DNA of 64,000 nt from Methanolobus chelungpuianus (GTDB lineage: Archaea > Halobacteriota > Methanosarcinia > Methanosarcinales > Methanosarcinaceae), in contig NZ_JTEO01000002.1 of the NCBI RefSeq assembly GCF_024500045.1, forward strand, positions 496,001-560,000, in the 5' to 3' direction. Below the pieces are notes generated by a model. That model was not told the origin of the DNA and searched no databases. It saw only the letters and a program-made list of their open reading frames with translations. This document shows, piece after piece, positions 23,856 through 27,446 of this stretch. Position 1 is the first letter of the stretch. Every line of letters starts with the position of its first letter. The position numbers and the translations under genes are program-made.

Positions 23856-24620
23856 ATGTTGCTTGATGAAAAGACATTAGTGACATTACAAAAATTGGGA
23901 TTGACATACTATGGCGCAAGGGTTTATACAACGCTTGTCTCCCTAGGCCCGAGCGATGCAACTGACCTTGCCATTGAATCAGAGGTTCCGCGGACAAAGA
24001 TATATGATGTCCTCAGAAGGCTCGAAACCGAGAAATGGATAACCGTCGAACATACAAGGCCTATCACTTATACTGCTAAGTACCCTAAGGATATAATCGA
24101 AGAGCAAAAAGCCGTCTTTAATTCCGAAATTGACGATGTATCCAATCAACTGTCTATGCTGTATGATAAATTAATGGATAAGGAAATTCCTAAGGTGTGG
24201 CTTTTAAGAGGAACGGATAATATTACGGCAAAAGTGCTTGATATGGTGGGCAGAGCTAAAAAAGACATAATGCTTCTGGGAGCCCTTTACTCTGCAGACG
24301 AGCTTGAGCAGCTCAGAACAGAACTATCACTCGCTAAGAAAAAAGGGCTGAATATCCGTGTTATCTCTAAACAGAGTATAAAACTGAAAGATGGAAAATT
24401 GGACATCGTTGAGAAGTTATCTCCAGTCATACCTGAAATTAAAATATCAGGGCCTTCATTTGCAAAATATGTAATAATCGATGATAAAGAACTGCTAATC
24501 GTATACTCTAAGGTAGAAGGCGATGTTCTGGATGTAGATAGCATAATAGCTATATGGATTCCAAATGTGTCAGTTGCATCATATCAGGCAAGCATATTCA
24601 ATGGCATATGGAACGAGTGA
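23856..24620 (+). CDS. TrmB-family transcriptional regulator
   Basis: The 254-residue protein has an N-terminal TrmB-type winged helix (LQKLGLTYYGARVYTTLVSLGPSDATDLA, read as helix and turn, then VPRTKIYDVLRRLETEKWI), a coiled-coil linker (about 80-110), and a C-terminal phospholipase-D-like effector domain (about 120-250). TrmB proteins sense sugars or other small ligands. This one has no cysteine, so direct thiol redox sensing is ruled out. It is followed by two units with near-identical promoters, which are its natural candidate targets. Confidence 0.88.
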   Translation: MLLDEKTLVTLQKLGLTYYGARVYTTLVSLGPSDATDLAIESEVPRTKIYDVLRRLETEKWITVEHTRPITYTAKYPKDIIEEQKAVFNSEIDDVSNQLSMLYDKLMDKEIPKVWLLRGTDNITAKVLDMVGRAKKDIMLLGALYSADELEQLRTELSLAKKKGLNIRVISKQSIKLKDGKLDIVEKLSPVIPEIKISGPSFAKYVIIDDKELLIVYSKVEGDVLDVDSIIAIWIPNVSVASYQASIFNGIWNE

Positions 24621-24655: not shown

Positions 24656-24770
24656 TATTTTGCTGTAATTCTTTTTTACTGTATTATTTATTGATAAGAT
24701 TAGAAAATCGAAATTAGTCACGAATACCCGTCCGAGAGTTACAAAATAAATATAAAGCCTTAATCAGAGA
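24656..24770 (+). promoter_or_regulatory. Duplicated promoter, copy 1
   Basis: This stretch upstream of the NmrA-type gene matches 25806-25920 over about 110 bases. Shared blocks are ACTGTAT-ATTTATT (from 24678), AGTCAC-AATACCC (24716-24729), GTTACAAAAT (24738-24747), then a TATA-like ATATAA and CTTAAT. The blocks upstream of TATA are the likely activator or repressor sites. Confidence 0.65.
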
Positions 24771-24824
24771 TTCATTATCAACCTCGCATGAATAAAAGAG
24801 CCAGATATGAAATAGGAGCAAAAT

Positions 24825-25694
24825 ATGATACTGTTAATCGGTGCAACAGGAAATATAGGCATGCCAATAGTCAAAAGCCTCCAAAAGAAAGGTGTGGAGA
24901 TTCGCCTGCTTGTACACAATGAGAAATCAAGTGCAGTAATCGAATCATTGGGGCAGATGGAAATTTTTGCAGGGGATTTTCGCAACGACTCTGATCTGAG
25001 GGAAGCCATGAGAGGTTGCAGTTCAGTATTCCATGTTGTCCCGCCTTTTACACAGGATGAAGCTGAGATTGGTTATCGCGTTATAGAGAATGCACGTCAT
25101 GCCGGTGTTGAACATATTGTCTTCAATTCGGTCCTTCATCCACAGCTGCGCAAGATGGAGCATCATGCCCGGAAACTATTGGTCGAAGAGGCAGTGATCG
25201 AATCCGGCTTGGCTTTCAACATAGTTCAGCCTGCAATGTTGATGCAGAATCTTCTGATGGTGTGGAAAACAATAAGAGAAAAAGGTGTATATCCGGTCAT
25301 TTCCTCTCCGGACAAAAAAATGTCTCTTATTGATTCGGAGGATATCGGGGAAGCGGTTGCTAATATCCTGACAGATCCTTCATTGCGTAATGCTACCTTC
25401 GAGCTGGCAGGATCTGATCCGCTCACTTACAAAGAGATGACCTCTATTATCAGTGAGGAGCTGAAGCAGCCGGTAAAAGTCGTGGCGATAGATGATAAAG
25501 GCAGGGAGGAGCTGGCATGGGCACAGGGCATGTCCTCTCATGCTATCAATACATTCCTTAAAATGGCAGAGTACTACGACAAACATGGATTTGCCGGTGG
25601 CAACTCCTTGGTGCTCACGTCAATCCTGAAGCGGTCACCTAACAGTTATCGTGATTTCATCAGGCGTTTAATTATAGAAGATGGCTGTCTTTGA
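24825..25694 (+). CDS. NmrA/QorB-like NAD(P)-binding protein
   Basis: The 289-residue protein is an atypical short-chain dehydrogenase. It has the Rossmann motif GATGNIG (6-12), a diverged second part (VFNSVLHPQLRKMEHHARK, where the His-rich stretch replaces the usual YxxxK), and an NmrA-type end with SLIDSEDIGEAVANILTDP and FELAGSDPLTYKEM. Relatives include NAD(P)-sensing NmrA and quinone reductase QorB. Its AGGAG site is good. Upstream lies the duplicated promoter that also precedes the iron-sulfur flavoprotein gene. A redox role is likely but the substrate is unknown. Confidence 0.87.
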   Translation: MILLIGATGNIGMPIVKSLQKKGVEIRLLVHNEKSSAVIESLGQMEIFAGDFRNDSDLREAMRGCSSVFHVVPPFTQDEAEIGYRVIENARHAGVEHIVFNSVLHPQLRKMEHHARKLLVEEAVIESGLAFNIVQPAMLMQNLLMVWKTIREKGVYPVISSPDKKMSLIDSEDIGEAVANILTDPSLRNATFELAGSDPLTYKEMTSIISEELKQPVKVVAIDDKGREELAWAQGMSSHAINTFLKMAEYYDKHGFAGGNSLVLTSILKRSPNSYRDFIRRLIIEDGCL

Positions 25695-25805
25695 AAACCT
25701 GCCCGTCTATCCATTAATTTATCCCATTCAGTTGCTCAGTAGATAGGGGGAGATTGTCCTGCTCGCCTTACCTGCCTACAGGATAGGAAAACTTTTCATA
25801 TTTAT

Positions 25806-25920
25806 GCTTTTGTTGTATTTTTTTCTCACTGTATCATTTATTATAAGCGCTATTATATAGCAAACTGAGATCAGTCACTAATACCCCTCTAAAAGTTACA
25901 AAATGCATATAAGGTCTTAA
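25806..25920 (+). promoter_or_regulatory. Duplicated promoter, copy 2
   Basis: This stretch upstream of the iron-sulfur flavoprotein gene matches 24656-24770. It contains AGTCAC-AATACCC at 25873-25886, GTTACAAAAT at 25895-25904 and a TATA-like GCATATAAG at 25905-25913. The spacing from AGTCAC to GTTAC is 22 bases in both copies, which favours a shared bound protein. Confidence 0.65.
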
Positions 25921-25965
25921 TGAGATGATGCCTTGTCAAGTTCACATAAACAAAGGAGCAAAAAC

Positions 25966-26631
25966 ATGAAGATAGTCGGAATACATTCAAGTCCAAGAGG
26001 TAAGAACAGTAATACATTAAAGTTGTTGGACGCTGCTCTGGCCGGAGCTGCGGATGCCGGGGCCGATATTGAGTCTATTGATATTACAAGACTTAATATC
26101 AGTTACTGCATTGCCTGTGACGTCTGCCACAAAAAGGGTGGATGCCCGATAAAAGATGACTTCAATAACGTAATGGATAAACTTCTGGCTGCAGATGGCA
26201 TAATCTTAAGCAGCCCTAATTACATAATAAATATAACAGCGCAACTCAAGACACTGTTCGACAGGAGTCCGCGTATTGTTCATGAGCAGCTCTTTGAAGG
26301 GAAATACGGTTTCTCATTGACAACGACAGGCAGCGGTGACGTCGATTTTGTACTTAAGATCATGAATGACTATATGGTGATCTGCGGAGGCAACACAGTT
26401 GGAGGGGTCGGGTGCGCAATGGCAGAGGGTCCTTCAGTATTGGAAGCGGCTGTTGAGAACTCGCATGAGATGGGAAAAGACCTTGTTAAGGCCATAAGGG
26501 AGAACCGGCAATACCCTGAACAGGATACTGTGCATAAAATGTGGAAAGAAGGATTCAAGTATGCCATCCTTAATAATAAAGATCAATGGGCTCATAACTA
26601 CGATTACTGGCTGGAGAAAAGCTGGATCTGA
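25966..26631 (+). CDS. Isf-type iron-sulfur flavoprotein
   Basis: The 221-residue protein has a flavodoxin-like NADPH-dependent FMN reductase fold (HSSPRGKNSNT phosphate loop at 7-17, SSPNYIINI, TTGSGD). It carries the compact cluster motif C48-x2-C51-x2-C54-x5-C60, the same spacing as the 4Fe-4S site of Methanosarcina Isf, which reduces O2 and H2O2. The ATG at 25966 has AAAGGAG 7 bases before it; an earlier frame start at 25933 has none. The DUF169 gene follows after 26 bases, so the two likely form an operon. Confidence 0.9.
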   Translation: MKIVGIHSSPRGKNSNTLKLLDAALAGAADAGADIESIDITRLNISYCIACDVCHKKGGCPIKDDFNNVMDKLLAADGIILSSPNYIINITAQLKTLFDRSPRIVHEQLFEGKYGFSLTTTGSGDVDFVLKIMNDYMVICGGNTVGGVGCAMAEGPSVLEAAVENSHEMGKDLVKAIRENRQYPEQDTVHKMWKEGFKYAILNNKDQWAHNYDYWLEKSWI

Positions 26632-26657: not shown

Positions 26658-27446
26658 ATGGCATCAACAGCTCTGCTGGATATAAAGAAAGTGGGGGAAA
26701 AGCTTACAGAAGCCGGCAGGTTAAAACTGCGCCCTCTATGCGTCTACAGCACGGACAAAATTCCGAATAACGCAGTACCCTCATATAAAGTAGATCGCTG
26801 CATAGCAAGAGCTATTTACTCCTCTGCCCTTTTTGAAGAAATCCCTCCATTATATGTTGAAGCATCTCATGAGCAGTGCTGCGCAGGCGGACTGGTATGG
26901 ACCGGATTGGCTGAACCGCACCCGAAACTGAAGTACTTCGTGACAGTGGGAACTCCTGATTTCCATGGAGGCGCTGCCGAGCATTTAAAGGCAGGTCCTG
27001 AACTGTTCGATGAGCAGAAGAAGCGGGCAGGAAAAATCACCCCTCACGGCAAGTACACAGTCATTGCTCCATGCACTGATGCCCTTGCACCTGAAGATGT
27101 CATGTCTTTTATTCTTTTTGCAGGTAGTGAACAGATAAGAAATCTCTGTGGGCTGGCGCAGTTCAATAGTTCCGATCCCTTCTTTAAAACATTGATACCC
27201 GGAGGACCGACATGCGCTGTTATGATCGCTTTTCCGGCAGGTATTGCAGAGAATGCTCCGGGCGACTCAGCTTATGTCGGGCCTGTCGATCCTACAGGAA
27301 ATTCCTGGCTGCCTCCTGAGTTAATGATTATGGGCATCCCGGCATCACTGGCGCAGCAGATGGCAGCCGATCTGAAAGAGTCTTTTATTGACAAAAGAAG
27401 CAAAGTAGCATACCCGGAAAAACGTATCATAGTACAATCAAAGTGA
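26658..27446 (+). CDS. DUF169-family protein
   Basis: The 262-residue protein matches the DUF169 family by its pattern: an N-terminal region with LRPLCVYSTDKIPNN, a Cys-pair segment (SHEQCCAGGL), VIAPCTDA, and the late GGPTCAVMIAFP. The function of the family is unknown; it is widespread in anaerobes. The cysteines at EQCC, APC, NLC and PTC could bind a cofactor. It lies 26 bases downstream of the flavoprotein gene on the same strand, so it probably shares the promoter at 25806-25920 and may act in the same redox process. Confidence 0.82.
   Translation: MASTALLDIKKVGEKLTEAGRLKLRPLCVYSTDKIPNNAVPSYKVDRCIARAIYSSALFEEIPPLYVEASHEQCCAGGLVWTGLAEPHPKLKYFVTVGTPDFHGGAAEHLKAGPELFDEQKKRAGKITPHGKYTVIAPCTDALAPEDVMSFILFAGSEQIRNLCGLAQFNSSDPFFKTLIPGGPTCAVMIAFPAGIAENAPGDSAYVGPVDPTGNSWLPPELMIMGIPASLAQQMAADLKESFIDKRSKVAYPEKRIIVQSK

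Follow-up and report, generated by a model that had tools for sequence, protein, structure and literature searches.

Genes and paired promoters of the locus

The window, a 64,000-nucleotide stretch of the Methanolobus chelungpuianus genome, contains a TrmB-family regulator gene followed by three genes that lie behind two similar promoter regions. The features are as follows, all on the forward strand.

23856–24620, +: TrmB-family regulator, 254 aa, wHTH with Y50/D51, TrmBL2-like architecture, no cysteine
24658–24815, +: P1, the promoter copy that precedes the NmrA-type gene; shares homology with P2 and with the one promoter present in genome G089
24716–24747, +: P1 operator in the form given by an earlier note on this DNA (left box AGTCAC, TACCC, AGTTACAAAAT)
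24725–24746, +: P1 operator core TACCC-N7-AGTTACAAAA, dyad TACC...GTTA
24749–24757, +: P1 TATA-like element AATATAAAG, assigned from the sequence
24825–25694 (ATG at 24825), +: NmrA-type NAD(P)-binding protein (PF05368), motif GATGNIG
25808–25975, +: P2, duplicated promoter region before the Isf-type gene, delimited by alignment with P1
25873–25904, +: P2 operator, same motif of the earlier note
25882–25903, +: P2 operator core TACCC-N7-AGTTACAAAA
25906–25914, +: P2 TATA-like element CATATAAGG
25966–26631 (ATG at 25966), +: Isf-type iron-sulfur flavoprotein, FMN_red, C48IACDVCHKKGGC
26658–27446, +: DUF169 (PF02596) protein, 26-base gap after Isf

A profile search placed the TrmB wHTH domain PF01978 at residues 11–77 of the regulator (5.4e-19), and this domain together with the tyrosine at position 50 makes the protein a member of the TrmB family. 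The earlier note had described it as a TrmB-type regulator without cysteines, and its sequence indeed has none. The names given there to the three downstream products also held: the NmrA-type protein matched PF05368 (8.8e-35) and carries the GxxGxxG nucleotide motif as GATGNIG, the Isf-type protein matched FMN_red (3.7e-26) and has a compact cysteine motif (CX2CX2CX5C) within the required pattern CX2CX2CX4-7C, and the last gene encodes a DUF169 protein. The coding regions behind the two promoters belong to different, unrelated families, as had been claimed. YtfG and triphenylmethane reductase are among the nearest solved relatives of the NmrA-type protein, the best plasmid matches of its gene are bacterial NmrA/HSCARG proteins (37%), and no orthologue was found in the 185 other genomes of the order (E ≤ 1e-40). 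Isf iron-sulfur flavoproteins are reported to react with O2/H2O2 (Cruz and Ferry 2006, as cited in PMC4338226). Isf and DUF169 probably share one transcription unit, and DUF169 adjoins Isf in most relatives that could be read far enough. The Isf-DUF169 (COG2043) pair looks like one functional unit; a search for a solved relative of DUF169 gave none.

The motif AGTCAC-N-AATACCC-N8-GTTACAAAAT occurs exactly in both promoters on the + strand (24716–24747 and 25873–25904), with the boxes AGTCAC and GTTAC starting 22 bases apart and a TATA-like element behind each copy (24749–24757 and 25906–25914), all in agreement with the earlier note. Transcription from P1 would begin near 24780, given the usual TATA position at -26/-27 (PMC4158304), and transcription from P2 near 25937. 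The match between the promoters was also correctly reported, but its length was underestimated at about 110 bases; the homology extends over about 160 bp. Local alignment of P1 (24658–24815) with P2 (25808–25975) gave 124 identities, 33 mismatches, and 12 gap positions, with a score of 107 versus a maximum of 32 in 1000 shuffles, and 27 positions matched in the best ungapped 32-base window versus a shuffled maximum of 21. Two origins had been offered for this similarity, duplication or joint selection; joint selection without common descent is rejected because the homology spans about 160 bp, and the alignments identify the two promoters as a true duplication. In comparison with the one promoter of G089, the similarity of P1 begins at the TrmB stop codon and that of P2 continues into the Isf start codon; the NmrA-type gene therefore entered between TrmB and Isf together with a copied promoter. 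In the history that we propose, the window lineage would have gained the NmrA-type gene along with the second promoter copy, which would have placed it under the same control as Isf; one lineage would thus have added a foreign gene to a regulon through tandem copying of a promoter.

Across the whole 2.6 Mb genome the motif was present only at P1 and P2, plus one unrelated place with three mismatches, and this genome-wide search revealed no further good site that would indicate a wider regulon. The sites with three mismatches at G000:C2:435353 and in G112 were discarded, having no related gene downstream and a frequency similar to that of a reversed control pattern. Nearly exact conservation of ACCCYACAAAAATTACAAAAGCYATA was noted in several genomes of the window's genus (loci L086–L093; genomes G000, G007, G008, G011, G013, G014, G015, and G023), where it is either a different conserved element or coding sequence.

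The probable operator and its TrmB clade

Close homologues of the regulator were present in three of 186 genomes of the order, namely the window genome, G089 (88%), and G170 (82%); a fourth (86%) is on the 4.4 kb contig L036, which has been assigned to a Bacteroidales bin. In L036, L037 (the G089 locus, on a contig of Methanosarcinaceae archaeon UBA470), and L039 (G170), the TrmB gene (82–88%) is followed by a single operator/promoter and then by Isf, which in L037 is reduced to a remnant. Isf orthologues (64–75%) are common in Methanosarcinaceae, and a full operator was found before none of the 25 that occur without this TrmB. The operator therefore follows the regulator and not the target gene, a clear positive outcome for the motif search in relatives that the earlier note had proposed as a check.

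Several loci in other genomes deserve mention. In L037 (8959–9121), Isf is cut to a short remnant behind an intact operator and an MFS exporter comes next; a similar Isf-like remnant seems to be present before the MFS gene of L072. The TrmB-Isf-DUF169 cassette on L036 (DCFT01000035.1, “Bacteroidales bacterium UBA1797”) is of methanogen type and 71–86% identical to that of the window, and the contig is almost certainly misbinned. In L066 and L065 (G166 and G173), right-half operators (ACCC-N5/6-AGTTACAAAA) and a TATA-like element precede Isf; neither genome has an orthologue of this TrmB. These half operators are either relics or read by another factor, and in view of them part of the motif may be a core promoter element or may be recognized by another factor.

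The search was extended to a sample of 393 genomes of the phylum with a TrmB threshold of E ≤ 1e-40, which ten genomes passed (including the window's own), down to 34% identity. The core pattern TA[AC]CC-N7-AGTTACAAAA was fixed from the orthologous loci above and three further ones; sites beside TrmB in G235, G213, and G227, as well as the additional sites of G356 and G211, came to light only afterward. With at most one mismatch, the core occurred at 21 places in 14 genomes, 12 of them beside a TrmB gene of the clade described below (about 1e-31 by a rough binomial estimate). In the tree, all ten site-bearing TrmB proteins fell into a single clade of 15 members (100/99). The core adjoins ten of its eleven PRT/PRP-type members, down to 34% identity, and is absent beside the 29 TrmB genes outside the clade; in the eleventh member (G195), the TrmB gene and the site lie on two contig ends. 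This strict association, established at the level of sequence, strongly supports the TrmB-type protein as the probable reader of both window promoters, as the earlier note had supposed. Y50, which contacts DNA in Pfu TrmB (PMC4158304), is conserved without exception in 14 clade members, and cysteines number zero or one per member and sit at non-equivalent places. Relatives of the regulator were found in none of the viral contigs and plasmids searched. The scattered occurrence of the cassette across genera makes horizontal transfer likely.

The genes beside the operator differ among these genomes. In G211 (64%) and G202 (62%), the operator immediately follows TrmB, and an MFS exporter comes next. 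In G235, G356, G213, and G227, it is located 42–62 bases before the TrmB start and points away from TrmB; what it faces is a SnoaL/CDGSH unit, a CDGSH/Rieske unit, or a set of DrrA-type ABC genes. The G227 site looks decayed, and G356 carries another site on the opposite flank of TrmB, before a GMC oxidoreductase. The targets of the clade thus comprise Isf-DUF169, NmrA, MFS and DrrA-type exporters, SnoaL/CDGSH, and GMC oxidoreductase.

A logo of 13 sites revealed an invariant AGTTACAAA, a nearly invariant TA[AC]CC, mostly A/T at operator positions 8–11, and, in the majority of cases, TATA-like bases spanning +26 to +30. The distance from operator to TATA-like element is mostly constant; in the two genomes of family f7 the site has no clear TATA behind it. 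The left box (RGTYAC at -9) is weaker than the core in this set. Judged by these alignments, the left AGTCAC box appears to be a weaker, partly lineage-specific extra, and the functional core would be TA[AC]CC-N7-AGTTACAAAA upstream of a TATA box. Two other descriptions of the element were set aside. A pure direct repeat (AGTYAC...AGTTAC, period 21) is found in Methanosarcinaceae and f7; it is degenerate in the f16 sites and absent from the reverse site of G211, and the repeat was therefore treated as accessory. A core with N6 spacing (ACCC-N6-AGTTACAAAA) has the wrong spacing for most sites and was replaced by TAMCC-N7. With TAMC and GTTA as its outer half-sites, separated by N9, the element has the form of a dyad. 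The BRE consists of two adenines at -34/-33 (PMC4158304), and the A-run of the operator, which falls where a BRE is expected, is probably that element.

In four proteins of a sister subclade, the PR at the start of the recognition helix is followed by Ser and not by Thr/Pro, and variants of TCACC-N7-AGTGACAAAA lie nearby: exact in L081 and with one, two, and three mismatches in L074, L082, and L075, respectively. Allowing three mismatches, this pattern was found in none of the 29 loci outside the clade. The weaker variants are suggestive only, because the pattern was taken from L081 itself. The half-site change is complementary on both sides in L081 and L074 and affects only one half-site in L082 and L075. 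Half-sites TAAC/GTTA and TCAC/GTGA would fit a dyad read by a homodimer.

Regulatory reading and its alternatives

The conserved element is very probably the operator of the adjoining TrmB-family regulator, whatever the sign of regulation. According to the mechanism suggested by these comparisons, a homodimer of the TrmB-type regulator would read the dyad TAMC-N9-GTTA, which lies immediately upstream of the BRE and touches it; at both operators the homodimer would set transcription of the NmrA-type gene and of Isf-DUF169 together. From the same material we infer binding by the protein, its homodimeric state, a small-molecule signal, and a response to electrophilic or other toxic compounds. The differing targets suggest chemical stress, and the range of target genes that relatives have makes the redox or toxicant regulon proposed in the earlier note plausible.

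The lack of cysteine in the window protein speaks against an OxsR-type thiol switch, and the protein gave no match to the C-terminal sugar/effector domain PF11495, so neither thiol oxidation nor sugar is supported as the signal; the C-terminal part, about 170 residues as in TrmBL2, may bind something else. A structure prediction of the TrmB protein from three sequences reached a pLDDT of 40, too poor for use.

Activation of the targets is slightly favored over repression, with simple repression relieved by induction nearly as likely. The constant operator-TATA distance before unrelated genes fits activation, and the overlap of the operator with the BRE fits repression. According to a review of the family, a TrmB site activates when it lies upstream of BRE/TATA and represses when it lies downstream (PMC4158304). 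In G211 and G202, a reverse operator copy encloses the regulator's own TATA-like sequence, an arrangement that fits autorepression. No operator copy was found in the window TrmB gene's own promoter, and autoregulation is thus not general in the clade.

A ligand-released repressor, in which the TrmB-type protein would cover the BRE and block TFB at both promoters until a toxicant or metabolite freed the DNA, has somewhat less than an even chance of being correct; it is a sub-case with the same operator and regulator and the opposite sign, and its probability overlaps with that given to the operator itself. Regulators that act locally on exporters and detoxifying enzymes usually repress, which favors it, as do the enclosed TATA in G211 and G202 and the contact of the right half-site with the BRE adenines, which a dimer footprint would reach. 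Pfu TrmB likewise represses from a site at BRE/TATA (PMC4158304). Repression would not, however, need a constant operator-TATA distance before unrelated targets, and the sites stop short of the targets' TATA box and start site.

Two further explanations dispense with the neighboring regulator. The shared sequence could be just a strong core promoter (BRE/TATA and flanks) copied with its DNA, the nearby TrmB being incidental; the A-run fits a BRE, a TATA box comes next, and AGTTA[CT]AAAA followed by a TATA-like element persists in G166, G173, and others that lack this TrmB. We consider this improbable: the full element is absent elsewhere in the genome, it tracks the TrmB clade over large distances before unrelated genes, its TA[AC]CC part falls outside the core promoter, and it changes together with the regulator subclade. 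Hardly any more probable, and if anything less so, is another regulator encoded elsewhere that reads the element, with TrmB a fellow passenger of a mobile cassette. Scattering over genera and the half operators of G166 and G173 are compatible with that idea, but the f7 and f16 elements lie at TrmB genes with quite different partners, TrmB being the only common neighbor.

Returning to the TrmB-type protein as the reader, we tentatively propose, at close to even probability, that an undescribed clade of short, TrmBL2-like TrmB proteins is the archaeal counterpart of local TetR/MarR/LysR-type detoxification regulators. Its N9 dyad would be fixed against the target BRE/TATA, and a regulator whose own TATA falls inside the dyad would repress itself. 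Specificity would come in two classes, TAAC/GTTA for proteins with Thr/Pro in the recognition helix and TCAC/GTGA for those with Ser, and new targets would be recruited by tandem operator-promoter copying, as for the NmrA-type gene. Our searches of the open-access literature turned up no paper on this clade or its operator, and none that connects TrmB proteins with genes of these kinds. A motif is known for few archaeal members of the TrmB family; the comparative data provide a regulator clade, two specificity classes, a target list, and a probable operator resolved to single bases, and the predictions are directly testable in tractable Methanosarcina.

Comparison with characterized TrmB proteins

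TrmBL1/Tgr of the Thermococcales (TGM operator TATCAC-N5-GTGATA) resembles the window clade in combining a TrmB-family wHTH with a dyad operator, and acts as an activator upstream of BRE/TATA and as a repressor downstream. The half-site letters of the PRS-subclade variant (TCAC/GTGA) are those of this operator, whereas the window clade has TAMC/GTTA half-sites and N9 instead of N5; moreover, the 254-aa window protein lacks the sugar-binding domain and its targets are not sugar genes. Assignment as a sugar-sensing TrmB/TrmBL1 was rejected given the missing PF11495, an NCBIfam TrmBL1 score of 91.9 versus a cut-off of 650, and an element of the form TAMCC-N7-AGTTACAAAA instead of TATCAC-N5-GTGATA or TACT-N3-AGTA. 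The Halobacterium TrmB VNG1451C has a long-spacer dyad (TACT-N7-8-GAGTA) resembling TACC-N8-AGTTA; however, it is a global sugar regulator of 360 aa with an effector domain, whereas the window protein would act locally on one or two adjacent units.

OxsR of Haloferax volcanii (PMC9426492) is a TrmB-family protein tied to stress genes whose motif lies upstream of BRE/TATA at activated genes, but it consists of a single domain, has a cysteine that is essential, and has a CG-rich motif. An OxsR-like thiol switch was discarded for the window protein, from which the conserved dimer-interface cysteine is absent. MreA of Methanosarcina acetivorans is a TrmB-family protein from the same archaeal family as the window; this global methanogenesis regulator of 139 aa has serine in place of the conserved tyrosine, and no motif is known for it (PMC4158304). 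The nearest solved structures are those of TrmBL2 (PDB 5bpd, 5bqt, and 5box), which align with residues 12–225 of the window protein; at 264 aa TrmBL2 is of the same length class and is also without the sugar-binding part. By NCBIfam equivalog, membership in TrmBL2 itself was rejected (62.9 bits versus a cut-off of 530). TrmBL2 is described as an abundant chromosomal protein on coding and intergenic DNA with no given motif, in contrast to the specific operator conserved in the window clade.
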